Shown here in pieces: positions 8,754-62,646 of a DNA stretch of 64,000 bases. The number at the start of each line of letters is the position of its first letter. The stretch's first letter is position 1. Source of the stretch: Bryoerythrophyllum caledonicum (lineage: Eukaryota; Streptophyta; Bryopsida; Pottiales; Pottiaceae); the NCBI GenBank assembly GCA_963971425.1, contig OZ020515.1, forward strand, positions 8,200,291 through 8,264,290, read 5' to 3'. The notes beneath the pieces are model-generated. The model had not been told where the DNA came from. It was given only the letters and a program-made list of their open reading frames with translations, and ran no database searches. The translations under genes were made by a program, and so were the position numbers.

Positions 8754-9320
8754 ATGGAGTGCGAGATGGGTTCATTGCGGGCGCGCGCCGTCTTCGTGAA
8801 CGCCGCCGAGGGGGACAGGGAGTTCGCGGAGCGGTTGTGCGCAGACTTGGAGCGAGCGGGCCTCTCGCCGTTCCTCAACAGGAAGACTGAGTGTGCGCTC
8901 GCGGTCGTGGTGGTGTCAGAGGAGTATCTCACCCGGAGCAGCATCATGGCTGAGCTCCATGGCTTCAGCGCGGTTCTCCCGCTCTTCTGGGGCTTGTCGC
9001 GTGAGGAGTTCCGGAATCTGCAGCGGCCTGAAGATACTTCGGAAGGTGTGGAGTACGTGAAGGCGCTCGGGGAAGCACGTTACAGACACGAAGTCGTTGC
9101 CGCAGCGTGCAGAAAGCTCCATTTGCAACAGGAGATTGATGTGGAGAATGGTGAAGGTGGAACTCGACCAAAGGGTCGGTGCTATTATCTTCGTTTGGTG
9201 TTCGTAATGCCGGTGGTGGTTGTAAGCGTCATTTGTGTGGGATCTATCCGGTACTCTGCTTTCTTCTGTGAACAGGGTTATCCGTCTCCTTATGGAATAA
9301 TATTCCCAACAATGACCTAG
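8754..9320 (+). CDS. Minimal TIR-like domain protein with C-terminal transmembrane segment
   Basis: 188 residues, single exon, ATG at 8754. Residues 9-90 look like a TIR domain: RAVFVNAAEGDREFAERLCADL (strand A and helix A), GLSPFLNRKT (strand B), ALAVVVVSEEYLTRSS (strand D and following loop), AELHGF, then AVLPLFWGLS (strand E). The AEL glutamate sits where the NADase glutamate lies in other TIR domains. Compared with the TIR of the NLR at 42382, about 16 residues between strand B and the VVxSEEY strand are absent. Residues about 145-167 form one hydrophobic helix (VMPVVVVSVICVGSIRY). No NB-ARC follows. It may be a real TIR-only membrane protein or a fragment of a lost NLR. GC-rich codons and an intact frame favour a gene. 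Confidence 0.65.
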   Translation: MECEMGSLRARAVFVNAAEGDREFAERLCADLERAGLSPFLNRKTECALAVVVVSEEYLTRSSIMAELHGFSAVLPLFWGLSREEFRNLQRPEDTSEGVEYVKALGEARYRHEVVAAACRKLHLQQEIDVENGEGGTRPKGRCYYLRLVFVMPVVVVSVICVGSIRYSAFFCEQGYPSPYGIIFPTMT

Positions 9321-12793: not shown

Positions 12794-14547
12794 TTATTGT
12801 GTTTTCCTGGAATCTTCTGATTGGAAGTCCGAAACCTTGCTCTTCTTCACCAACATCTCTGTTCTGTAGGTTGCATCGTCCTTGATGAAGCTCCACCACA
12901 GGTACGTGATAGGAAGAGTGGCAGCGTGCCACATGGCGTGGGCGTCAAAAATGCCCCACAGCGGTGGGAAATCAAAGACTTCCAAGAGCATTGCGAAGGC
13001 AGCTCCAAAAACCACGGTCCACAGTTTAAAACGAGCTGGGTGTTTGGTAACAAAACCCCACGTTGCCCATATCAAAAGCTGGGCTACGCCTATCACCACG
13101 CAGACGATCATATTCAAACCTGCAGTCATAACAGGACTGGTCAGGTATCCATGCAGCGCTACACGGAAAAGAATAACACCGCTTATTGAATGCAGCTTAC
13201 CATAGTCAAATTTGTAGAGATTGAGGTACAAAATATGCGTGGAGATAAAGGCGATTATAGGAGCTGCCACCATCACTCGGGGCGCCTCGGTGCGCAGGTT
13301 TCCAGTCCGGATGATGGCCAGCATCAACGAGTAACCAATCAGAGCAATAGCTGATGAATAGTCCAGCATCTCAGTGAATGTCATGTCTCTGCAATACACA
13401 AATATGTGAAATTAGAACTCATCCCCCCCACCTCACTGACGTTCACGAAGGAGCCTAGAAACCAGTAACTACTGGTGATCCGCGACAACTAACTATACCA
13501 TGCGACCACAGCCCCGTCACTAATTTAATCGCTCAGAATCCTTAAAGCAATATGTTGTGGAAAGATGCAGAAACGAGAAATCACCTTGAGTGGAAGACAG
13601 TGCTCCATATCCAGCTGTTCATCGACAGAAGGCCATACATGGTCCAGAGTCCAACATATTCGTAATAAGGACCCTTGGCACGAGAAGGAAGCTTGTAGTA
13701 CATGAGCACCAGAAACGAGGAGAATCCTTGGAAGTGAACCAGCAGGTTCAACACAGAGAAGGTCACAGAGGCTGGCTCCTAAATGCATCATCACACAACA
13801 AGTCGTCACTCACAAATTACTAATCACAACTACATTGCCTCCACATGTATTTGTAAGCACACCTGCAGGCTGAAGATTCGGACGAACGGCCATTTTCCGT
13901 GATACTTGACGGGCTCCTCTGGACCTGCTTCACGAGCAAGCTCCTCGCGGAGCATGCACTGGTAGCGGCACTCACTGATGCAGTCCCACTTCTTCCATCG
14001 CAGGTACAGTGGCTCCTCCAGGAACTTTTCATGAGGAGAATTGAGTGCCTTCTTAGGCAGAATGTTGCCCTCCAAATCCATGTTCACGGGGAAGTGGCAG
14101 CTGTTGTAGCACTGCCCGTCCACACATCCTGTCTGCTCACAGCCTTTAACACATCCCCTGCAGCGTGTCCACCACGTCAACAATCTCTCCAGTACTGCAA
14201 ACGCATAACTAAACCATACTACTCCGAATTAACACCAAAGAAAAATAAAAAACAAGAGCATAGCCCCTGCGAACCGACGATTCTTTCACGCTCTCAACTA
14301 CACAACTAAACCGTGCAATTCTAACCTACATTGCCAAAACCTAAACTCCGACCGCATCACCACACCTCCGCCTCTTAAACCTCAGAATTTAAACCACAGA
14401 CTTCCATCTCCTCACAACAACAAAAAACAAGAACCGAACCAAAAGGAAGCACCTGTAACCAGGCCGCTCGTCGCCTACGCTCCCCTCGCAGACCAGCACC
14501 AGAGACGCCACCAGCACCACCAGCAGGAGGCTCCGCGGAAGCCTCAT
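12794..14547 (-). CDS. PGAP3/Per1-like GPI-anchor lipid remodelling protein
   Basis: Predicted multi-pass ER/Golgi protein of the Per1/PGAP3 family, part of the CREST superfamily, which removes an acyl chain from GPI anchors (family knowledge). Four exons: 14547-14453, 14157-13863, 13778-13585, 13388-12794; phases fit and the product is 392 residues. Visible: signal peptide (LLLVVLVASLVLVC), a lumenal Cys-rich region (CVKGCEQTGC, CYNSC, WDCISECRYQCM), then about seven hydrophobic helices. The two His-containing family signatures are present: FHSRDMTFTEMLDY across the exon 3/4 join, and DAHAMWHA near the C terminus. The C-terminal tail is short and basic, with KKSK. Length fits the family. The 5' side abuts a minisatellite (14811-15417). 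Confidence 0.93.
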
Positions 14548-33170: not shown

Positions 33171-34246
33171 TATTTGTTTATGTCTGCTCGCTCAGCTGAT
33201 CGACGTGCTGCGCGTGCCTTCCGACGCTGGTTCTTCGTCCGCAGATAAGTCAGCTCATGACTCGGTGCGCTCACTGATCGATGCCGTCCCCGCGATTTTC
33301 CACCGCGATCGATTGAGTGATTTTCTAGCTAGTAATGTTTTCTGGTCAACTGCAGGCTCTCGTGACGTGATTTAAGCCGGTGAACTCGAGTCGTGTCGCA
33401 GTTGCAGGTCATCGCCGAGCTTGGAAGTCTCCGTCTGCAGGATCTCGATCACAGCGGGTACGGTTTCTATCTTCGCTTTCACCTCTCGTTAACGTGAAGT
33501 TCTGAGCTGCTAGAGTGTGGGCGACGTTCTAAATGTCAGCTCGCGTTGGCGTCCATAGCCACCACCGTCGTGTTTTCTTCTCGGATCTGTACGGTACTCG
33601 CGCGTCACCTTCTGGGTTGTGTGTACGGTGACTGTTGTTGCGGTGGTTGGAGTCCATTTCGGGAAGCTTGCAGTTGGAGCAGGGTTGATTAGAAGCTGAT
33701 CAAGTGATTAGTTCGGTGTGGGAGGGTTGTACGTCGCACTAGTGGAGTAGAGTAACACTATCTGATTTGCGAGGCAGCTGATGTGGTGAGTTCTAGTCGT
33801 GTGTCGGATTCTAGCTTGGCCGAGTCTGTGAAGGTCGAGGATGTGAAACTTGGATGCACTTTACTGAAGACGTTGTAATCTGGGTGCCGCCATTCGATTT
33901 GAGCCTGTGATTCGGGATGGTTGATTGGCACCGACTGGTTAGTTGAGTGCAACGGATTGCGACTAGCTCCTCTTCAGCGAAATTGCGTGAATCACGAGCT
34001 GGCTGATGATGCTCTGGAGGCTAGTCTGAGTGGATGTGGAGCTTGGCCGTGTCTGATCAAGCCGCTTTGTGTGAAGCTCGGCCTGTGTATGAACTTAATT
34101 TGTGGAGTGAATGTGAATCTCGATGGATGTTGTGAAGCTCGCTTGTTCGAGTGAATGTGAAGCTTGGTGGAGTATTTGAAGCGTGCTTGTGTCTGTGAGT
34201 TCCTAAACCTGCAGTGTTCTCGCTGTGCCAGTGCGGATCAGGCGCG
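33171..34246 (+). promoter_or_regulatory. GC-moderate leader and promoter region of the chitinase gene
   Basis: Base composition rises here relative to the AT-rich DNA before it. No coding domain. Short reiterations of GTGAATGTGAA and TGTGAAGCTCG occur at 34060-34190. It may include non-coding exons of the chitinase transcript; transcript data would decide. Confidence 0.35.
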
Positions 34247-35694
34247 ATGGCGGGGAGAATGCGACTATTCGCGTTGCTGGTCCTGGTGTTCCTCTCCTTG
34301 TGCTTCCGCCACGCCACAGCCCAGTGCAGCGCGGCCAACCCCTGCGCTGACAACCTCTGCTGCAGCCAGTACAACTACTGCGGCAGCGACGACGCCTACT
34401 GCCTCATCGGGGAGGGCTGCCAGGCCGGGCCCTGCCGCGCCGAGCCCACCCCGCCGCCCCCGCCCGCGCCGCCCTCGCCGCCCAGCCCACCTNNNNNNNN
34501 NNNNNNNNNNNNNNNNNNNNNNNNNNNNNNNNNNNNNNNNNNNNNNNNNNNNNNNNNNNNNNNNNNNNNNNNNNNNNNNNNNNNNNNNNNNNNNNNNNNN
34601 NNNNNNNNNNNNNNNNNNNNNNNNNNNNNNNNNNNNNNNNNNNNNNNNNNNNNNNNNNNNNNNNNNNNNNNNNNNNNNNNNNNNNNNNNNNNCAGCGTGT
34701 CCCCCACGCCCTCTAGCGGCGCGGGGAAACTCCTCACGCGCAGCCTCTTCGAGAAGCTCTACCCGAACTACAACCAGTCGTTCTACTCGTACGATGCCCT
34801 CATCGTCGCCGCGCGTGCCTTCCCCAAGTTCCTCAACCAGGGCTGTCCCGAAGACCGCCTCCGCGAGCTCGCCGCGTTCAGCGCCCACGTCCAGCAGGAA
34901 ACTGCCGGTGCGTGGTCCCCCTCAAATTCTTCCTTAACTGTTTCCTCAATCCTTTCTCAATGTTATCACAACGACTCCTCACAGTTTCTTCCATTTACTC
35001 TCAACTTCTTTTTCAAAACTTTCCTGTTACCTCAATGTTGCATATTTCATACGATGGCCTAGTGTGTTGATTGCGAAGTAAGGTCATCGTTGGACTGATT
35101 TTGTACAACGTTTGCAGGGTTGATTTATGTGGAGGAGATCTCGAAGTCGAGTGTGTACTGTGATGATACATCAACGCGGTACCCATGTGAACCATATCAG
35201 AAGTATTTCGGACGCGGCCCTCTTCAGCTCACATGGTATGTAACACTCTTAAAGAATGTCACAGATTGACAACCGTATAGTCATGTCACAGTTCCCATCA
35301 CATGATTCCCTACTGCAGGAATTTCAACTACGGTCCCTGCGGCGAGGCGCTAGGAATCGACATCCTGAAGCGCCCGTTCCTCGTCTCCTTCGACCCCGTG
35401 CTGGCCTTCAAGGCGTCCCTGTGGTTCTGGAACACCGCCCGCGAGGGCGGCATCCCCTCGATCCACGACGTGATCATCGGCAAGCACAAGCTCACGGCGG
35501 CCGACAAGGCGGCCAACCGCAAGAACGGCTTCGGGTACACCATCAACATCATCAACGGCGGCATCGAGTGCGGCAAGGGCACCGCCACCACGCAGGCGGC
35601 CAACCGCGTCAAGTACTTCGAGGAGTTTTGCAAGACGCTCGGTGTGTCGCCGGGCAAGAATCTCGACTGCACTAATCAAAAGTCTTTCGTTTAG
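34247..35694 (+). CDS. GH19 chitinase with N-terminal hevein (CBM18) domain, interrupted by an assembly gap
   Basis: Secreted defence-type endochitinase. Three exons: 34247-34907 (with 200 N), 35118-35235, 35319-35694; phases fit. Signal peptide about residues 1-25, then a hevein chitin-binding domain with its Cys pattern (CSAANPCADNLCCSQYNYCG, then CQAGPC). A Pro-rich linker ([15 protein letters not shown]) runs into the gap. The GH19 domain follows: LFEKLYPNYNQSFYSYDALI, FSAHVQQETAG with the first catalytic Glu region, YVEEISKSSVYC with the second acidic region, YFGRGPLQLTWNFNYGPCG, FWNTAREGGIPSIHDVI and NIINGGIECGKG. The EEI-YC arrangement resembles the shorter-loop GH19 enzymes rather than typical class I ones. 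The true linker length is unknown. Start chosen at 34247 because it begins the signal peptide. Confidence 0.93.
34493..34692. other. Assembly gap, 200 N
   Basis: Exactly 200 N between CCCAGCCCACCT and CAGCGTGTCCCC, within the Pro/Ser linker of the chitinase. The round number suggests a placeholder. The frame happens to be kept across it, so that carries no weight. Confidence 1.
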
Positions 35695-38363: not shown

Positions 38364-40514
38364 CCTAGAAATTTCATTTTACCCTTATAGTTCCTTGACA
38401 AACTCACACCAAAAACACTATAAAACGACCTCTCTATGATGCAACGTTGCAAGATTGATTGAAACGACATTTTAATATTTTCAACCGTAGGATCTTCAAT
38501 TTAACTACTACAAGATGACACTCAAAAAATTTCATATACTTTGACCGCATGGATTGTAAGATACATGCATTTGGAAAGTGCAGTGTGGTTTTTTCTTCCT
38601 TGCGCGGACAGGGTCAGCGTACTTTGAAAGTGCACCGTAAGTGAAATCTGCTGCAATACTTCTGAGGATGACATAATTCGGCTACCCTCGCACTCCAAAC
38701 GCTGCACAAGAACAGCGATGAAAGGACCTTGTAAGGGTCTGTACAAGGATCTCATGAGGCGAGCGTCCGGGTTAGTTCGCATTCGATAAACATGAAGTTG
38801 ATTTGTAAGACACAGTGCATGAAACATGCGCTAGTGTGTCACAATAACTTCACATTGCCAATGACTTCTAAACCAGAAATTATTGATGCAGTACGCGGTC
38901 CGCAATGGCAGATTCCAAGACTACCAATTCAGCATGCAGCTCATTTAACGTCAAAAAGGGAATCTACAACCAGAAGACGTTGCAGCAGAGCTGCACTAGT
39001 TTCCACCTCGACAGGATCACATATGCACACACGGAACTGCCCCTTAGGATAAATTGATGCGGACGTCTTAGAAAGATGTACATGATCTTGTAGATGCTGT
39101 CCATAAACAAGATTGCCATCCACTCGTTATTCGAGAGCCACAAACACAACAACTAACGTCTCCTTCACGTCAAGACTCTGGCTATCGACATGGATCCATG
39201 AGCACCTTATCAAACAACTGCCACAAATACATCGAAAAACCATACATTACCAACCACTCTTACACATCAATATTCCAGCCATAACCATAGATTCCTGAGT
39301 AGCCTGCTGATCACCAGCCAGACACATCGAAACATATCAACAACCACTCGGACTCCACATCGAGACTCCAAACAAGATCCCGAATTTGTACCTTAATGCA
39401 CTTAAGCTAAACAGCAGATCAGTTGAACATGAGGAAAAATCCCTATTCACCTCCGACCTAGTAAACATAACACCTGTGAAGCGTTGAAAAATAAGTGGCG
39501 GTGAGGTCGAGGCGAGCTACGAAAATGAAGTTATTTCCTAAAAACGGGGACGTTTTGAGTTTCAATTGAGTCCCAAGATCTCGAATGTAGGCATGATTTT
39601 AAGCGCTCCATTTTTGCATTGTAGGTACGGATGCTGTGAATTGGATGAGAAACCATTCCTTGACCTGATTGTTTGGAGATGCTGATGTCACACATCTTAG
39701 ATTACGAGCTCTCTGATGGCTCAATTGCAAACTCGGTGTCCATATATTCATTTCAGGGGATAATCACACATGGTCGTTCAACCCTCTTTGGGTCTTGAAT
39801 TGCAAGCTGTTGCGAAGCTACCAGAACGCAATGCTTTTTGACTCATGGGTCCTTTGCATGTGACTTGGATCGGAACTACAGGAATTCCGCAAGAGGATTT
39901 ATCCAGAAGCAGAGGGAGAGAACGCAAAGTCCAAAGTGCGTATGGTGGGGTTGTATGGGGTGGGTGGTGTGGGCAAAACGGCTCTGTGCAAGGTTCTCCA
40001 CTATGAGCTTTCACCAGAGTTTCGTGACAAAGTGTGTCCTGTTGATTTGGGGAGAATGAGCACAGAGGAGGTTTACAGGAAAGTGGCACGCCGGTTTACA
40101 GGACTGGAGACTCAAGAGTTGGAGGATCTGAAGAATGAGCCAGACCGTGATAAGGTAAGCTTCGAACTTCAATGAATGGGAGATCTGAAAACCTGGGAAT
40201 TATATAGTACTGAAGCTGTTATTGGATGCTTACAGTATGCTTGCGATGGTCGCTTATTCTGAATGATGGTGTAGTGAGAAAGGTGCTAGAATTCTGCATG
40301 ATTCCCAAGAGTGCAGTCACAGGGAGACGGAGACGCCTGACCCTCCTGCTTCAAGTTTTTAGCAAAAATGAACAACCCTTAAATTTTCTTGACAAGCTGT
40401 TGAGAACGGGGTTATTCTTACATCCTCAAATCCTTACTGGGTATAAAATTGCAATGTAAATTTGTTGAATGTTATGACGATCTTAACCTGTCGTGTGCAT
40501 AGTTACAACCAAAA

Positions 40515-41125
40515 CACTAAAATTTATGTTTAGTGTAGTATACACTAAATGCGAACTCATACACCAATTGCAAACGAGGCATTTAGTGTAGTGACAAAAT
40601 CCTACACTAAATGCGAACTCATACACCAATTGCAAACGAGGCATTTAGTGTAGTGACAAAATCCTACACTAAATGCCAACTACTACACTATTTGTCAGTT
40701 GTAGTAAAGATTTCAACATTATTTTTTTCACTTGTGCACATTTAGGGTATCAATAGTAGAAGTATAAAAAAGGTCCAGTAGTCGAGGGCTGTCAGAGTAT
40801 CTTATCAGCAGCTTTCAATTGGCCACAACTCATTCATTATAAACCTGAATTGGACATATGAGGTGTTTTTTGGCATCTACAGAAAATTTAGATGCTAAAA
40901 AACACCTCATTTGCCCAATTTGGACAAGTTTTGAATGAGTTATGACCATTTGAAAGTTGCAAATGAAGCGAAGCATGGGTTGGAATGATTGGGGGATTGA
41001 TTGGGGTTTGAGTGAAGGTTACATTAATGACATTGGTAGCAAACACCAATTGTCAACTTCTTTACAAATAGTGTACTAGGGTAAGCACACTATTCGTACC
41101 ACTACACTAAACATAAATTTTAGTG
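40515..41125. mobile_element. 611-bp non-autonomous element with 25-bp CACTAAAATTTATG terminal repeats
   Basis: Left CACTAAAATTTATGTTTAG, right CTAAACATAAATTTTAGTG; 25 bp, perfectly inverted. The full NLR copy has no insert at the matching site (about 44627). Inside, a 62-bp unit (ACACTAAATGCGAACTCATA start) is tandem about 2.3 times at 40545-40680. Related sequences occur at 59278-59760 and 52515-52600. The target duplication is unclear. Confidence 0.88.
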
Positions 41126-41274
41126 TAGTGGTGCCGAGAGTAGCTATCGGAAGTGGGATAAAGTTGTGTAATAGAGGGCTTAGAATGATATCATGTTCAC
41201 ATTGGACGTTTATGGCCCGTTTGGGAGACTGCAGTACATATGCATTTTTGAGACAAATGAGGTGTTATTGGTTA

Positions 41275-41610
41275 GAGCATGGCCACCCCTACCCGCTCCG
41301 TGCTACGGTGGTGTGGACTTATTTGTGATATGCAGGGTGAGAACTCAAGAGGAAGCCCCACCGGCTCACAGTTGAGTCGTATGCCCAGAAGAATCCTATT
41401 GGCTGCACCACCTAAGATGCGAGAATATAGAATGTTTGCAAAGAATGCAAACAATCATTGGACACCAGGTTACAACCACCGGGCCCGCTGCTCAAACATC
41501 AACGGAGTGTGCGGGAAAAGGGTGGCAGGCCGCCCCGTGGCTGGGCCCCGCCACTATTCAATGCAAATGCATTGAATGCCCACCGGGTTTGAGCACCGGT
41601 GGCCATGCTC
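41275..41610. mobile_element. 336-bp MITE with GAGCATGGCCACC terminal repeats
   Basis: Left GAGCATGGCCACC, right GGTGGCCATGCTC. It is flanked by TTA (41272) and TAA (41611). The homologous empty site in the full gene reads ATTGGTTAGGTTG (44769 on). Ends and 3-bp target fit the same Harbinger-like type as 29509-29892. Interior contains CACCGGGTTTGAGCACCGG. Confidence 0.88.
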
Positions 41611-41671
41611 TAAGGTTGTGGCTTCGATATCATCTGATGCAGTTTATTTTGAATGCAGTTTGTAGGGCATG

Positions 41672-42381: not shown

Positions 42382-45300
42382 ATGGCGTCCGGAATTTCCT
42401 CTGAGCGAGGTCACTGTAAGCATACTGACGTAGAGACGAAGGAGGTGTGCGAATGTACGAAGTTCAAGGATTCTTTGGAATCGGAAGACAGGGTCCTCTG
42501 TGGACGTTGCGGGCATCATGCATCTTTTCATTTACCAGGCGATGCTGTAAAATCTGAGCCCGGCAGATGTTTGGCGAAATCAGACTCTGTATGTGAAGAT
42601 GGGTGTCAAGAATTCTTTCCACCTCATGAATGTTCTCTACTGTCGAAGAATTGTGGAGGTTGTGGGTGTCATAGATATGACCATCTATCGGAAGGTGTGA
42701 AATCGGAGAGTGGGTCGACAGGCGACGGAAGCAGCGCTGCAGACAGGTAAATGGTGGCTAGTTGCTCCGTTTGTGCATATAGACAGGGACGTGCATTATA
42801 GGTACGGATGCTGTGAATCGGATGGAAAACATTCCTTGACCTGGTTGTTTGGAGATGCAGCTCATGTCACAGCGTAGATTACGAACTCCCTGATGGCTCA
42901 ATTGCAAAGTCGGTGTGGATGTATCCATTTCAGGGGATATTCTTACATGGTCGTTCTAGGGCATGATCGTACAATGCTGTGGCTTATATCGTTATCAAGT
43001 AACATATATTGTCAGAGCGGCATGTTAGAATACATTTGCATGTGTTTTGTGCTCTCTGTTTGATCTTCTTTCTTGTTTTTGTTTTGATCTTCTTTCTTGT
43101 TTTTGAGCACGGGCAGGGATGTCGGTTTCGCTCCTAAGCACAAGATTTTTCTTAGCTTCAGTGGAGCACAGAGGCGCTTCGCGATAAAGCTACGTGACAA
43201 ATTGTGGTCCGGTGACCGGTACCCATTCTATGACCGACATCGGAGCTGCTTACCCCTTGGAGAGAACGCTCCGAACCTGATGTGGAAAGCCATCGAGCAA
43301 TGTCGTGTTGGTGTGGTGATCCTCTCTGAGGAGTACTTCACAAGGACGAAATGGCCGATGTTGGAGTTCGTGGCAATGACGAGGGAATTGAAGAGGAATG
43401 CGAATCCCATCAAAATCATTCCTGTGTTCCTAGGCATAACCCACAATGATTGCCGTGATCCAGCGAAGCACAAAGAGTGGTTGAAGATTTGGGAGAAGTG
43501 GGCGAGTGCCGAAAGCAACCGCGTATACAAGATTGATGTTGGTGAATGGGTTGAGTCGGTGCAAGAGTTCTTTGATAAACCTGTACAGCGTTTGGAACTG
43601 AGATCAAAAGGGCAGCAAGGCGTTCTTCGTGAAGAGATTGTGGATGCGATCCGCAAAGAGGTTCGTCCAGAGTTCGTGTTCTCCTGTGGTGATGTACAAG
43701 GACAAAAGAGGTTGTATGAGGTGAGAAAATTTGTGGTGGACGATTATGTTCATAACCACGATGAGACTGTTAGAAATCCATGATCGGGGTGGGAGCATGG
43801 TTCTGAGAGATTACATGGTGTCCTATAAGTCTCCGGGACCGTTGTTCTGAGCGTTTGGTCGAGGATTTTGGGACTTAGCATAATGTGAATTTGTGGGTTT
43901 TAACCCTCTCTGGGTCTTGCATTCCAAGTTGTTGAGAAGCTACCAAAACACAATGCTATTTTCACTCATGGGTCCTCTGCATGTGACTTGGATTGGAACT
44001 TCAGGAATTCCGCAAGAGGATTTTTCCAGAGGCAGAGGGAGAGGAAGCAAAATCCAAAGTGCGTGTGGTGGGGTTGTACGGAGTGGGTGGTGTGGGCAAA
44101 ACGACTCTGTGCAAGGTTCTCCACTATGAGCTTTCACCGGAGTTTCGTGACAAAGTGTGTCATGTTAATTTGGGGGAAATGAGCGCAGCGGAGGTCTACA
44201 GGAAAGTGACACGCCGGTTTGTAGAACTGGAGGCTCAAGAGTTGGAGGATCTGAAGAATGAGGTGGACGCTGATAGGGTAAGCTTGGAACTTGAATGAGA
44301 GGGAGTTTAAAAACCTGGGAATGATGTAGTACTGAAGGTGTTATAGGAGCTTATGATTGCGATGGTCGGTTTTCCTGAATGATGGTGTAGTGAGGAAGGT
44401 CCCAGAATTCTTCATGATCGGCCACAGTGCAGTCACAGGGCGACGGGGAGGCCGAACTCCCTGCGTAAGAATGGGAGCGGGTATGATGAACCCTTGAACT
44501 TCCTTGAAAAACAGTTGAGGACGGGGTTATTCATACATCCACGAAACTTGACTGGGTTTAAAAATGCAATGTCAATTTGTTGAATGTTATGACGTTCTTA
44601 TCCTGTCGTGTGCAAACATGCAACCAATAGTGGTGCCGAGAGTAGCTATCGGAAGTGGGATAAAGTTGTGCGATAGAGGGCTTAGACTGATGTCATGTTC
44701 TCATTGGACGTTTATGGCCGGTTTGGGAGACTGCAGTACATATGCATTTTTGAGACAAATGAGGTGTTATTGGTTAGGTTGTAGCTTCCATATCATCTGA
44801 TGCAGTTTATTTTGAATGCAGTTTGTAGGGCTCTTGAACAGTGACAAGCTGGGGAAAAGAGTCTTCTTGGCTATTGACGATGTGACTACTGATCCTGAGA
44901 AGCAGGCGCTGTGTTTGGAGCTAAAGAATGTCGAATGGCGTGATGGAAGTGTGGTGTTGATCACATCACGGTCTCAGGGTGTATTGAATGGTATTGGGAT
45001 AGACGGGAGCCAGTGCTTCAGAATGCTTGATCTGGAGGAAGGGGAAGCTAGGGCTCTGTTCCTGAAAAGTGTTCGATTCTGCAACTCAAATGTCAATGTC
45101 AACAAGGAACTTCTTGACCAGTGCTTGGAGAGGTGTAACTTCTCTAAAGGTAATGGCAAAAGTAACTGCCATTGGCACCCATTGGCATTGAAAGTGCTTG
45201 GCAGTCAGTTGATTGTTAATTATGGTTACGATCCCGATCGTTGGAAGCGGCAGTTGAAATCGATCGACACATTCAACGCATCACACAGTAGAAGTGACAA

Positions 45301-46641
45301 GCATCCAGTGTTTTCTATTTTGCGAAGCAGTTTCGACGCTTTGAAGGATGATGAGAAGCTGTTGTTCATGGATGTTGCTCTTTACAAGCATAAACCGACA
45401 TTATGGCAGTTGCCGATGACTTATATGAAGATTCTAGCACGTCGTTTATTTTTTTTTCCGTCTGTAATGAATCCGTATAAGCGTGGTGTTCCGTTGTTCC
45501 AATGGCTTTGCGTGGTGCACGACAAAGAAAACAACGAACTGAAAGACATGGTACAGCTCACTCAGCCGCTATATTGGTTTTGTATTTGAGTTGTTTTTTG
45601 GTGAGAAATTTCACTGGACTAAAGTGAACGTGTGTGCATTGAGTGTATTATTTTGAATTTTAGGCGTTGAAGACGTAAACAGGAACAATTCGTGGACATG
45701 GCAATCTGATATTAGAGTTCGTGTTTGATTTCTGTTTTCCATCGCAGTTGGAGAGTCTAAAGAGGAAATCGGTTCTGGAGACCATCAAATTCGAATGTGG
45801 AGGGCACATGCATGATCTGTGGGTTGAGTTTGCTCGCGAGGAAAGCAGAGAAGTGAATATCGCAAGGATATATGAGACACCCTTAAAACTGTCGAAAGGG
45901 GACGATGTTCGGAGCATGCGTCTGGAGATTCAAGAAGCGGAGCCACTGAAGAACGTGGATTTGAATGGATTTCCAAGGCTTTCAGTGTTGGAAGTGATCA
46001 GTTTTAGGTCGAACATGAAGTTGAATGTGTCTAAGCTCAGCCTGCTGAAGAGTTTGGAAGTTACTGATTATGGAAACGACGGGGTCGACATCGAGGGACT
46101 TGGTGCTCTTGAGAGCCTTGCTTTTCTGAGAATCTGGGGTATCCGCAACTCCGCATGGCTTCAGGAGATAAAGGATTTGACAAATCTTCAGATTCTACAC
46201 TTGGTGGATTTCCTCGGTTACAAATTGCCAGATTTGAGAAAGTTGACGAAGTTACGGGTTCTGAATTTACTAGGGTCACATAACTTGGACAGTGTCGAGT
46301 TGAGAAACCTTCCCAATTTGAGGGTCTTGGATGTGGGTTTCGGATGGCAGCTTCGGAGATTGGATCTCTCTGAGTGCAAGTCGCTGACGATGGTGTCTCT
46401 TGCACGCAACTATTTACTACAGGAACTCCGTGTGTCATCCTGTCCGAAGCTTTATGGGTTGCGTGGGCTTAATAAGTTGGAGGAGTTGACGGTGTTGCAC
46501 ATTACTGATTGCCCCTGTACTGAACGCCTGCCAAGTTTCAAGAAACTCAAGAAAGTGGAGGATTTGGACATCGATGGATGCAAGTCGATGGAGGATTTGT
46601 TTAAGAAGACTCGGAAGAGGAAATGGCCTTTTGATACCTGA
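42382..46641 (+). CDS. TIR-NB-ARC-LRR immune receptor with N-terminal tandem Cys/His modules
   Basis: Intracellular NLR, 954 residues, 5 exons: 42382-42746, 43117-43720, 44005-44277, 44822-45550, 45748-46641; all phases agree. Residues 11-102 hold two similar Cys/His modules: C23-x-C25-x2-F28...C40-x2-C43-G-H-H...H50, and C71-x3-C75-x2-F78...C91-x2-C94-G-C-H97...H101, a pattern that should bind zinc and resembles the CGCH part of ZF-HD fingers. The TIR domain (about 127-280) has IFLSFSG, VGVVILSEEYFTR and MLEFVAM with the likely NADase Glu. NB-ARC: P-loop GVGGVGKTT (349-357), kinase-2 VFLAIDDV (428-435), RNBS-B VVLITSRS (458-465), HPLAL for GLPL (533-537), MHD (678-680). LRRs run from about 715 to 930. 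The Cys/His N-terminus is not standard in TNLs. Confidence 0.9.
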
Positions 46642-54444: not shown

Positions 54445-57400
54445 GCAGCACCTTAAGGTGCCAACGATCCAATCCTGCCAGCTACATTTGGCCCGGGAAC
54501 AGGCTAGAAGTGAACCCTGAATTGCCAAGAACTTGGATGAGACTGATTTTGTCATTTACAGTGGTAGTTTAGGAAATACATAGTGGCGGCGTTCATTTCA
54601 TATTGTTGTCTTATGAGGTGCATGTCAGTACACATTCTCCAATATTCTTAGTTAATTCATGCAACTCACTTAGCCACCATCCCCTAATATTTCATTTAAT
54701 TCTATAAACGACGGTAGCTAGATTTGCAAAATCTCATGAGCAAAGATGAGGAAAATTCATGGCAGTTTATGTGAAGTTGGTTGGCGTGATTTAGAAGTGG
54801 AGAGGGTTGGTAAACTGTGATGACACTGATCAGCTTATGATCTGATCGTAATTACTGCATGGTTCACAGCTTGTCTACTTTCAACCACGTATTTGAATCG
54901 GCAACCCCTCGTAGCTTCAACATCTCTCCGACGTTTGAAGATGATTTCAGAGCTTGTGAGCTGATTTTGTGAGTTGATTTCAGAGGTTGTGAGCTAATTT
55001 CGTGAAGCTGATTTCAGAGGTTTGGAGCTGATTTCGTGAGCTAGTTTCATGAGGTGATTTTGTGAGCTGATTTTGTCAAGTTCACAGAGCAACGTGAGGT
55101 GATTTCGTGAGCTAGTTTCATGAGATGATTTCGTGAGCTGATTTCCTTAGGTTCATAGAGTGACGTCAGGTGATTTCGTGAGGTTCACAGAGCAACGTCA
55201 GGTTTAGAGTGCCGTGACGAGGACCTCGCTGAGGTTTGTGAAAATTCTGCATTGTTGCGTGAGCATGGTAAGCATGCATAATGGAGACATTCATGAGGAT
55301 GAAGACGGCACATGGGAGTGGCATGATCGAAGGAACCGTCAACTGTCAGGCACAAACAACGACTCCGATTACCAATCTGAGGGCAGCGACCATGAGGTGG
55401 ATTTCATGAGACGAGGTGCTTTGAATGGTGGAGGGGGTGGGACGTTTACTCTACATGGTGGTCAGAGTTTCAGCGTAGGCGTCTATGAGACTGAGATGCT
55501 CTTCCCGCAGAGTGTAAGTCGGCGTACACTTCACCAACGGTCCCTTCCGAATGTGGCTGTTGAATCTGGGGTAGGTGCTAAAGGTGCGGGCCGGTGTAGT
55601 GTGAGGTTGCAGAGCTTGAGGCAAGAAGCACCGCAACCTGCTGCTCCCGGCGACCTTAGTCATGGTGCTGACGGCACTAATGCAGCCTACGGTGGTGGGC
55701 AACGGACACGCGCTCCTCGACGAAGAGGGGTCCACCTTCCTTTGAATGGGAACTGGACCAATGCATAGCTCCACGCAGCCTTGGCTGCACACGAGCGGGG
55801 CATGTTCGTGAACGGTGCTGCTATTGCCTATGACATTCCGAGGAGCTCTCTGCGTGCTCATTTGATAGGAACAACACTATCTAGGAAGCGAGGCGCGGCA
55901 CCTATATTAACAACACATGAAGAACAATAGTTGGTGGACTACGTGATTAGCATTCAAGATCTAGGCTTCCCAGTGAGTATTTTGGAGTTAAAATTGAAGG
56001 TGGCTCTTATCACGCAAGGTAGAGACACGCCATTCACAAATGGTATACCTGGACCAGGTTGGTTACATTGGTTTTGGAGGAGGCACCCAGAGCTGTCACT
56101 GCGCCTTGCTCAAGGCCTGGACAGCAATCGAGCAAGGAGTCTATGTGCAGCCAATGTCAGCACCTTCTACGAGAACTTGGGAGCCTTGTATGAGGAGCAT
56201 CAGTACCCTCCATCGCATATCTGGAACTGCGATGAGTCTGGAGTGCAGGCTGGTTGGAATGGGGGTGCGTACGTATTGGCCAAGACTGGATGCCGCAGCG
56301 TGCACCAAGTCATTCCAGATGAACGTGAGTGGCTCACCGTATTAACCTGCATCAATGCTGCTGGTCAGAGCATTCCTAGCTTCTATATTTTCCGTGGCAA
56401 GCCCTTCCGGAGGAATTATATTCAGCATTGCGAAGAAGGTTCAACTATGGCTATGTCAAATAAGGCATGGATGACTGCGTTCCTTTTCTCTGCATGGATT
56501 GATCATTTCATACAAGCATTACAAAACAATACTGAGATATCCATTTCCTCACCTCACCTTTCATTATGGACGGACATAGCTCGCATATTACTCTGGATGT
56601 TGTTCGCAGGGCACGAGCAGTTGGCCTTCACCTCTTCACCTTGCCATCTCACTGCAGCCATGCCATGCAACCACTTGATGTATCAGTATTCAAACCATTC
56701 AAGGCAGCTTTTCGTTCATACAGAGATGTGTGGACACTAAACAACAAAGGTATTGGTGTCCGAAAAGAGATGTTGGCCTCATGGGTGTCGAAGGCGTTGC
56801 GAAGGGCATTGACAACGGAGAATATCATGGTTGGATTCCACACAACGGGCATATACCCACTGAACAGCGAGGCAATGGCCTCGAAAATGGGACCTGCATG
56901 TGCGTACAATGGCCTGGGCAACAACGGAGAGGGCTCCAACATACATGTCGACGAGGTGTTGCTCTCCCCCATAGACAACATGTCGATTCAGGAGGTTCTC
57001 GAAGAGCCTGAATATGTCCCTACCGAAGGGAATCACTACTTCGTGGAGGTGGCAGAGTCCGACTCAGAGGAAGGGGCCGGGCAAAGGCGCAGCTCAGAGG
57101 CTAGCCGAGGAAAAGAGCGAAGTAGTCAATCAAGCTAGGAAAGTGTTGAAGGTGTCAACGATGTACCTGGCATTGGTCAATTTCTAGTGCTCCCAACGAT
57201 TCCAATTCGCAGCTCCAATCGTACAACATAGACGCCCTTGATTGACTATACAAAGTCGATAATGTTGACTTCAGACAACTACTTGTTGTCCATGGAACAG
57301 TTGGCAGCAAAACACGAGGGAGCTGCGAAAGCAAAAGAATCGCGCAAATTAGATGCGCAAGCAAGAAAGAAAAGGCGCGACAAAGAGAAGGTCCAACACG

Positions 57401-60176: not shown

Positions 60177-62646
60177 CTAGGACTCTCGGAGGTGAACTCT
60201 TCTGGGGCCATGCTTGGCCTCGCTTGGGAGCACTTGGAGGCGGCGCGACCGGAGGATATCATTCACAGAATTGAGCTGCACATTGAGCAAGAACTTCTTG
60301 CGCATGCGCGCGATGTAAGGGGAGCTGGGAAACTCCACCACCACGCCACCCTTCCTGTTAACAATTCTGGGCCCGCGCGAGAACTCGGAGATGATCTTCT
60401 TTGCAGAGCAGCTGTGCTTGCCTGCGAGGGTAAAGAGCGCGGCCCATCGCACCTGGTAATCCACCAGCCTGCGCACCTTCTGGAAGTTGTCGCAGCACCT
60501 GTAGTAGCTCAGGAGGCACGTGCCGAGCGCGGCGAAGTAGGACACAATGGCCTCATCAGAGGAGCTTAGCATGGAGGTCAGCACAGTCGGCATCGCTTTT
60601 CCGGGCTGGAGAATTCCCTTCACGCGCAGCTTCTCCGTGAGGATCTCCATCGGCGCGAGCAGCTGGAGGGGAGTGATGCGGGTTGGCGGTGGTCGCGGGC
60701 GCATCCGCTCGATGGCTTTCGCCTTCTTCTCGAAGGTGGTCTCGTCGTGGATATACTGCTCCATGAGCCGCGTGAGGCGCTGGTGCGCGCGGAGGATGGG
60801 CTCCGGGACGCCCGTGCTCGCGGCGTCGAAGAACACGTCTTCGTCGTGCAGACTCGGGATCGCGTCCCGTCCTCGCTCCATCTGGTCGAGGGCGAACTTG
60901 CTGGCAAGGCCTTGCGCCGTCTTGTGCATGGCTTGCTTGGCGAACTCCCACGACTGGAGCTCCCGCTTGGTGCGCTTCAGCCCGAACGCCCACGACTGGA
61001 GCGACAAGGCGCGCAGCTCGCCGTGCCAGGCGCGTGCGCGTGCCTTGGCCATCTGCTGTGCGCGGATCTTGGCGCGCCGGCGCGTCTCTACTTCCCGGGA
61101 GAATCGCCGGCGCGTCTTGCTCTCGAGCAGCCCCGCGATCCGCGTTCCGAGGAACACCACGGACGCGCCGCTCGGGATGTGGGCGTCCGCGGAGAGGCCG
61201 ACCTCTAAGTGGAGCTCGGTCCGGAGGAAGCGGGCAATCCGCGATTTCACGTTCTGCACGTCTTCTCTTGAGCCGCGCAGGCCCAGCAGAAACTCCTTCC
61301 CGTGGCGCATGTAGTGCAATCCCACGCGTGAGTCGGTCTGCGGATCCGGTGCAGCGCGGGCGGTGCCTGCGGATTCCATCTTGATGGAACACCTTGGCAG
61401 CAGCAAAGAGTTTGGTCCAACACGCAGGAGGTGGTACCTTCCCTCCTTGAAGTAGAACACGTACTTGGGTGCACCGCCGCCACCGCCACCGACCAGAATC
61501 CTGACATGTGGGAGTGTGGTGAGAGAGGTTGCTCGGATGCTCGTTCGCGAGCAAGGGTGGCGCGTGTATACATACTGCCTGGCAACTCTGTCCACAGATC
61601 CTCGTCGTCCTGGCCCTGTGAAGCATTATCAAAATCATAACCAAATTACTACGATTCTTCTTCATGAAGAAAAGAAATAGATATGTGTCAATGAAGGAAT
61701 GAGCATGGCCCATCAGGAAAGGAACTGATCACAGTGGTTCCTACAACCCACGAGGCTCCCCTAGCATTGGTTCTGGGCCTGATGAGCTCCAGAGTTGGAA
61801 ATCAAAAAAGTATCACATACCTCGATAGAATGACCTGACGTTGTTGTCTTCCCCCTCTGCTGCTTCGCCGGAAGAAGGGCGAACATCGCTAACTGAGCCA
61901 CTAGACTGTTCTGTACAAAAAACATGTTCAGCAAGAGTCAGAATTCTTAACAAAAAATATCTTATGCAATTCGCCCATGAATACAAGTGTCAAACTGATC
62001 CTTGTCGGAAAAAATTATTAGGTTGTCCTGCTACTCTAGAACCATCCCCTCCACTGATGATTTTAACCCAGGTTTGTTTGTGCTCCGACCATGAAAGCAA
62101 AAAGATCGTAGTATTAGGAGGCGATGCAGCGAAAGGAAATCGTTGCACAAAAACCCACACCATTCACCTCCTTCCCAATCTAAAAGCAGAGAACCCTAAA
62201 CCCTGAAATCTTCTAAACCTAAACCCAAACTCCGCCTCGGAAGCAACAGGCCCAACTGCCGTTCACATTCTCAAAAACCACACCATTCACCATTGGAAAC
62301 CTCCTAATCAGTTTAGAAGCAAAAAACCCTAAACCCTGACATCTGCCAACCTTTACTCAGATTCCGCAGGATGGTCAGAAGAAACAGGCCCAAACTCTCA
62401 CTCACATTCGCTTGGTGAGAAAGAGGAAGCGCATTCACAAAAAGATGCACAAAACACAATCCATACCTCCTGCGCTCCGGAAGCAAACGAGCGCGGAGAC
62501 AGGGAATCCGCAACTGGCCGGGTTGCGAGATGCGCGTGGTCGTCATCCAGGCTGAACCTCCTCATCAAGCCCCAATTCTCCCTCCTCACAGCTGCGCCGA
62601 CCGCCGCCCGGCCAGCTCTCGCCACCGCCATGGCGACCATTACCAT
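60177..62646 (-). CDS. Nuclear-encoded group II intron maturase-like protein (organellar splicing factor)
   Basis: Probably a mitochondrial (possibly plastid) intron-splicing factor of the nMAT type. Exons: 62646-62467, 61905-61821, 61615-60177; phases agree, 567 residues. Exon 1 is rich in Ala, Arg and Ser with few acidic residues (VAMAVARAGRAAVGAAVRRE), a typical targeting peptide. Exon 3 holds the remains of a reverse-transcriptase domain, HYMRHGKEFLLGLRGSREDV, where active enzymes have a YADD-type motif (here HGKE), followed by LHLEV and VVFLGTRI. The maturase X domain lies near the C-terminus: LTSMLSSSDEAIVSYFAALG, CLLSYYRCCDNFQKVRRLVD, YQVRWAALFTLAGKHSCSAK. Exon 2 could instead begin at 61910, but only 61905 keeps the frame. 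The long Arg-rich central part is unusual. Confidence 0.82.

Follow-up and report, generated by a model that had tools for sequence, protein, structure and literature searches.

The question raised by this locus is what two zinc-finger-like Cys/His modules are doing in front of the TIR domain of a nucleotide-binding leucine-rich repeat receptor (NLR). The locus lies in a stretch of 64,000 nucleotides from the moss Bryoerythrophyllum caledonicum (assembly GCA_963971425.1, contig OZ020515.1, positions 8,200,291 to 8,264,290, forward strand), called the window below. On its plus strand, from 42382 to 46641, five exons join by splice reconstruction into a single frame of 954 amino acids that encodes a TIR-NB-ARC-LRR receptor (TNL). 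Judged from the gene sequence, the modules of exon 1 are almost certainly fused in frame to this receptor, and the same layout is found at 14 further loci of the genome.

Exon 1 and its junction with the TIR exon

The earlier note had exon 1 splicing in phase into the TIR exon, and the reconstruction agrees. The donor at 42746 (CAG/gtaaat) and the acceptor at 43117 (gggcag/GG) are both near consensus, and the junction is of phase 2, with AG and G combining into an Arg codon. The ATG at 42382 is the earliest in its open frame. The TIR exon contains no in-frame Met between the upstream stop and the TIR domain, and an upstream coding exon is therefore needed. Pfam places TIR, NB-ARC and LRR in this order in one frame, which is the TNL domain set, and the protein carries the P-loop, kinase-2 and MHD motifs and the TIR Glu (Table 1). 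Exon 3 taken alone falls marginally below the NB-ARC cut-off of 23.5 bits. The Pfam scan finds no homeodomain behind the finger; exon 1 runs into the TIR instead.

The core of module 1 reads CECTKF...CGRCGHHASFH (42448-42531) and that of module 2 CEDGCQEFF...CGGCGCHRYDH (42592-42684). Both modules stand where the earlier note had placed them and fit its pattern. The Cys with which that pattern opens in module 2, C71, recurs in just three of the 14 sequences, and the conserved Cys of this module are C63 and C75. In the first 106 residues of the window protein, 14 of 20 Cys and His are invariant across the 14 sequences, versus 24 of 86 other residues (Fisher p = 0.0006). Two more are kept in 13 of 14, and H11, H82 and C84, like C71, in only three. 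One copy, L016, has lost C40 and also has stops in the LRR exon.

Chance clustering of Cys and His was considered as an explanation and is ruled out by a pattern scan and by shuffling. Nowhere else in the window, read in all six frames, is the strict or the loose regular expression for the modules matched, and none of eight shuffles that keep every Cys and His in place matches ZF-HD_dimer. Three of the eight match something at E ≤ 10; the best matches are cEGF (0.0036) and FXa_inhibition (0.0076), both in one shuffle, so that an E-value near 1e-3 would by itself mean little.

Table 1. Parts of the window gene, with their positions in the window and Pfam matches
Feature	Position	Strand	Description	Pfam match
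Exon 1	42382..42746	+	ATG start; pair of ZF-HD-like Cys/His modules; short linker rich in Ser and Gly; phase-2 end	
Module 1	42415..42531	+	residues 12-50; C-x-H ... C-x-C ... C-x2-C-x-H-H-x3-H	
Module 2	42568..42684	+	residues 63-101; C ... EDGCQEF ... C-x2-C-G-C-H-x3-H	ZF-HD_dimer 22.2 bits
Intron 1	42747..43116	+	phase 2; TAA directly at donor if unspliced	
Exon 2	43117..43720	+	TIR, conserved Glu in KWPMLEF	TIR_2 E 3e-13, TIR E 4.5e-10
Exon 3	44005..44277	+	NB-ARC part 1, P-loop GVGGVGKT	NB-ARC 23.4 bits
Exon 4	44822..45550	+	NB-ARC part 2, kinase-2 FLAIDDV	NB-ARC E 1.4e-7
Exon 5	45748..46641	+	MHD motif, LRRs, stop	LRR_14 E 2.2e-10

A gene family with the same layout

The window's own genome (437 Mb in 894 contigs) was searched with exon 1. 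The query gives 15 matches at E ≤ 0.001 including the window, on contigs C2, C3, C4, C6 and C9, and at all 14 other loci TIR, NB-ARC and LRR follow downstream in the same order and on the same strand. Homologues with the same fusion, which the earlier note had named as a possible check, exist within this genome. Both modules are present at 13 of the 14. At the remaining locus, L022, exon 1 is reduced to its end; relative to the window, a deletion has removed the start together with module 1 and a large part of module 2. Three more degraded copies were found with the exon 1 of L013 as query (E ≤ 10), at C6:12956093, C9:8150604-8151076 and C6:8102792, two of them having a TIR match with stops just downstream. 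The acceptor AG/GG before the TIR is present in the same phase 2 at all 15 loci, and a phase-2 donor is at the expected place in 14. The donor reads CAG/gtaaat in three subfamily-1 copies, CAG/gtcagt in L022, and CAG/gtttgt or CAG/gtatgt in subfamily 2. In L018 there is no donor at that place and the remainder of exon 1 follows about 0.6 kb further on, as if the exon had been split by an insertion. Because the layout is the same in many gene copies, it represents a real receptor variant and not the quirk of a single gene.

The loci form two subfamilies. Subfamily 1 consists of the window gene, L009, L010 and the shortened L022, and subfamily 2 of L011-L021. Compared with the window, subfamily 2 is 52-54% identical in the module regions and 45-48% over the whole of exon 1, giving about 45-54% exon 1 identity between the subfamilies; its TIRs are 40-42% identical to the window TIR where matched in one piece. 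The P-loop and the Glu in its W-P-M-L-E context are found at 15 of 15 loci. The GLPL pattern is matched at none of the 15, and the window reads HPLALKV at this place by eye. Kinase-2 and MHD patterns are matched in the window, L009 and L010 only; at the MHD place nine subfamily-2 copies have IHD and L022 has AHD (L014 and L018 lie outside the coverage).

Might exon 1 nevertheless be a separate MIF-like (mini zinc finger) gene, or might a microprotein made by intron retention be the real product? Unspliced exon 1 ends at the intron 1 donor (42744-42750, AG/G TAA) and would give a tandem-finger protein of 122 amino acids, MASG...AADR; the same stop right after the donor-spanning codon occurs in L009 and L010. 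In L010 and L020 there is also a Met upstream of the acceptor within the open stretch before the TIR, where a start inside the intron is thinkable. However, the stretch from acceptor to TIR lacks a Met at all 15 loci, and at 13 of them the Met-free stretch reaches back as far as the upstream stop. The two subfamilies agree in order, strand and junction phase, and in subfamily 2 the open frame continues past the donor by varying lengths. We regard a separate gene or microprotein as very improbable, and as far as the sequence can say, neither of the concerns in the earlier note, transcripts starting at exon 2 or exon 1 belonging to another gene, is borne out. A tandem-finger microprotein could be a by-product of the fusion gene.

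Kinship of the modules with the ZF-HD dimerisation domain

The earlier note suggested a Pfam search of exon 1 and compared the CGCH core with ZF-HD fingers. The search does find the ZF-HD dimerisation domain (ZF-HD_dimer, PF04770), at 21.5 bits (E 2.9e-4) for window exon 1, which is below the curated Pfam cut-off of 27 bits. All 14 members that have both modules, the window included, match at E ≤ 1, the best at 3.9e-7. A genome-wide search with ZF-HD_dimer returns 29 places at E ≤ 10. Nine TNL exon 1s exceed the cut-off in this search (27.1-34.7 bits), those of L020, L019 and L010 fall below it, and those of the window and L009 are missing from the matches.

The genome also holds free-standing proteins of this type. 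L023-L025 have full fingers (95-112 bits against ZF-HD_dimer) and end in a ZHD homeodomain recognised by eye, which makes them three ZHDs; for L025, Pfam at E ≤ 0.1 reports ZF-HD_dimer only. L027, L028 and L029 (C6:9.39-9.72 Mb) are MIF-like, with a ZF-HD match of 37-39 bits and a Cys/Pro-rich tail, and no homeodomain is seen in their open frames. L034 and L044 each have a single ZF-HD-like module and a second Cys/His stretch common to both. At E ≤ 0.1 Pfam finds ZF-HD_dimer in both and nothing in the second stretch; in L044 a zinc ribbon also matches weakly within the ZF-HD-like module. With a non-canonical domain fused in frame, and relatives of that domain encoded as free-standing proteins at other places in the genome, the window protein is an NLR with an integrated domain.

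Profile comparison with hhalign supports the likeness to ZF-HD fingers, more weakly for module 1. In single pairwise comparisons of shallow profiles (module 1 from 11 of 14 members, module 2 from 13 of 14, ZHD from three sequences, L034/L044 from two) with no unrelated control, module 2 matches the three ZHDs with probability 96.1 (E 3.5e-9), the two modules match each other at 92.8, and the single-module type L034/L044 matches module 1 at 95.3 and module 2 at 95.1, the best profile match of module 1 among those tried. The three ZHDs have Cys and His in the order C,H,C,C,C,C,H,H. Module 1 has Cys or His at all eight positions, but with H at the sixth and with C-x-H spacing. Identity of the modules to the ZHDs is 22-40%. 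On account of the Pfam and profile results, we consider module 2 very probably homologous to the ZF-HD finger, and module 1 likely so.

In the PDB, no sequence reaches E ≤ 1 with a ZHD finger from this genome, and the best values are 0.33 with the window exon 1 protein and 0.13 with the exon-1 profile. No relatives of either query are found in viral contigs. An AlphaFold2 model of exon 1 made without an alignment is unusable (mean predicted local distance difference test score 42.3, predicted template modelling score 0.27).

TIR setting and origin of the fusion

When the TIR exon is used as query, 18 entries among the best 150 of 250 candidates, corresponding to at least 17 loci, are linked to the finger exon. 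A tree of 35 TIR exons, 13 with the finger exon and 22 without (L009, L018 and the three degraded copies are omitted), places the finger-bearing TIRs in two groups. Bootstrap trees joining both groups amount to 0% of 200; a single clade is still not rejected (approximately unbiased test, p = 0.16). For the 22 TIRs, "without" is defined by two BLAST searches and by the open frames in seven upstream stretches of 2.1-3.2 kb, where frames of at least 55 amino acids, or shorter ones with Cys/His cores, were considered and a highly diverged exon could be missed; one of the seven, L055, is a broken, rearranged TIR region. The fusion could have arisen by one gain followed by losses, by two gains or by exon transfer.

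Among the matches listed, the best-scoring TIRs without the finger exon lie on C10 (47%). Their candidate first exon is of another kind (L052, reverse strand, nt 1484), which starts with MGNAVSG, is acidic and ends in a phase-2 donor fitting the same junction. This suggests first-exon exchange, from one case in a predicted gene. A more far-reaching scheme appears improbable to us: this TNL lineage would swap its first exon behind a conserved phase-2 intron, the zinc-finger version would join the pairing of ZHD and MIF proteins, and retention of intron 1 would release a MIF-like tandem-finger microprotein. The exon 1 of L009 and L010 starts with MGSGIS and that of the window with MASGIS. The MGSGIS starts and the candidate MGNAVS start presumably resemble an N-myristoylation start.

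Relation to known systems

The modules share with the ZF-HD domain of ZHD and MIF proteins the order of Cys and His, the DGCxEF and C-x2-C-x-C-H-x3-H cores, and the Pfam and profile matches. They differ in being two in tandem, without a homeodomain and fused to a TNL. In module 1 the first spacing is C-x-H, shorter than the C-x3-H of those fingers, and His replaces the third core Cys; from module 2 the NH His is missing. MIF proteins likewise have no homeodomain (PMC5585987).

The ZF-HD protein dimerization region is among the integrated domains listed for wheat NLRs (PMC7422411). There too an NLR has gained a ZF-HD dimerisation region, on the principle of the WRKY, HMA and BED fusions. However, in the parts of that paper seen, the wheat case is one entry in a domain list, whereas here a tandem pair stands N-terminally, before the TIR, at 15 loci on five contigs. 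Because of this precedent, and because the loci linked to the finger exon number 17 among the TIR candidates scored, the "new NLR class" suggested in the earlier note is too strong a term. Mosses are described as having expanded TIR-NLRs, and zinc fingers are named among the integrated domains of non-flowering plants (PMC11218826). In the kinase-, hydrolase- and Cbl-N-NLRs of the same source the odd domain is itself N-terminal, whereas here the TIR is kept and the modules are added ahead of it. The main text of that paper, its supplement aside, does not contain "ZF-HD". The zf-BED NLRs likewise have a zinc finger as integrated domain, but from another domain family; among the most frequent domains in a survey of 305 angiosperms, zf-BED was exclusive to coiled-coil NLRs (CNLs) (PMC12787737). 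The literature searched, which included the available parts of PMC11218826, PMC7145615, PMC7422411, PMC4759884, PMC12787737 and PMC5585987, supplements outside, yielded no description of ZF-HD modules ahead of a TIR. As far as this search reaches, the new feature is a tandem N-terminal ZF-HD pair before the TIR that is kept as a gene family.

Selection and the likely role of the modules

In ten subfamily-2 genes the ratio of non-synonymous to synonymous substitution rates (dN/dS) is 0.29 for the modules (5-95% range 0.17-0.47) and 0.23 for the TIR (0.16-0.35), and the linker that follows the modules has 0.62 (0.41-0.95), with intervals from 200 bootstraps, L018 left out and the damaged L014 and L016 included. 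A first calculation had given 0.30 for the modules (11 genes), 0.62 for the linker and 0.29 for the TIR. As estimated from these ratios, the modules of subfamily 2 are shown to be under purifying selection about as tight as that on the TIR, and they therefore appear to do a job. In subfamily 1 the modules have 2 synonymous versus 17 non-synonymous changes, summed over the three pairs of three copies, and dN/dS is above 1 also in NB-ARC part 1 (1.16) and the LRR (1.13). This substitution pattern might reflect relaxed or positive selection.

We favor a role as integrated bait or decoy for factors that bind proteins of ZHD/MIF type, on two grounds: the likeness of the modules to free-standing proteins of the genome, and the lack of such an exon beside most of the scored TIR genes. 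Folded around zinc, the modules would offer a surface for protein docking, as the ZHD and MIF fingers do. The pair would most likely be bound by a factor from a pathogen, or by a host partner of ZHD/MIF type that such a factor disturbs. Binding would release the NB-ARC switch, the receptor would oligomerise through NB-ARC and TIR, and the TIR, with its catalytic Glu kept, would make the signal. The three ZHDs, the MIF-like genes and the single-module genes are possible hosts of such mimicry. A tandem ZF-HD-type front end on a TNL, acting as integrated bait, is our best explanation as a whole, to which we give about even chances; the bait mechanism taken on its own we place slightly short of even.

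Several observations weigh against this explanation. The window's modules score below the Pfam cut-off (21.1-22.2 versus 27 bits), and module 1 alone gives no Pfam match. The hhalign probability of module 1 is only 69.3 (E 4.3e-5) against the ZHDs and 0.8 against the finger of the MIF-like L027. Module 2 keeps 7 of the 8 ZHD Cys/His positions, the NH His being absent. The last His of module 2 (H101) is lost in L012, a copy free of stops over the parts matched. Damage is apparent in five copies, namely L009 (a frame break in the TIR), L014, L016, L018 and L022. Constraint cannot be shown for the close copies of the window gene, because the changes are too few and too recent. A literature search on effectors aimed at ZHD proteins returned none on the subject, as judged by title and start of abstract.

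The constraint on subfamily-2 modules is also what would be seen if they were an oligomerisation aid, the main rival to a bait or decoy. ZF-HD-type pairing between receptors of this kind, or between them and other TNLs with the same modules, would then hold the TIRs close and lower the threshold for assembly. PF04770 is named for dimerisation, and the modules stand directly before the TIR, two per chain. On the other hand, most TIR entries scored have no adjacent exon-1 match, and divergence from the ZHDs is high, so ZHD-like pairing may be lost. We think this role rather unlikely.

The linker bears on a further alternative, a link to transcription, in which the receptor would bind the plant's own ZHD or MIF proteins and act on them in the nucleus once activated. 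All 11 subfamily-2 exon 1s have a basic KLDL-type motif behind the modules (KKRKLDL type, several variants), which may be a nuclear signal, and ZHDs are present in the genome. Subfamily 1, the window gene included, is without that linker, however, and the linker evolves faster than the modules. Such a link seems unlikely.

Other features of the window and the assembly

Upstream of the gene, at 39615-41668, lies a partial copy of this receptor. Its likeness covers intron 1 and the first NB-ARC exon, where the protein is 82% identical; exon 1, the TIR, the LRRs and all but the first bases of the second NB-ARC exon have no match in it. An open frame at 8754-9320 has a TIR_2 match below threshold (24.8 of 28 bits) and no zinc-finger modules. 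The window further contains chitin-binding and chitinase class I matches at 34199-34894, in an open frame broken by a run of N, a type II intron maturase domain at 60177-61625, Tc5-like transposase DNA-binding and DDE domains at 55931-56740, and a Per1-like protein at 12794-13411. Two plastid psaB genes occur in the one assembly (contig C821, L080, and contig C894, L079), with 97.5% identical protein and 90.8% identical DNA. A second plant may therefore be mixed into the assembly.

Implications

The tandem ZF-HD-type front end extends the N-terminal layouts known for NLRs of non-flowering plants. It makes ZHD and MIF proteins possible targets of pathogens, which is directly testable with these genes. 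It also suggests that TNLs may alter their front end by swapping a first exon.

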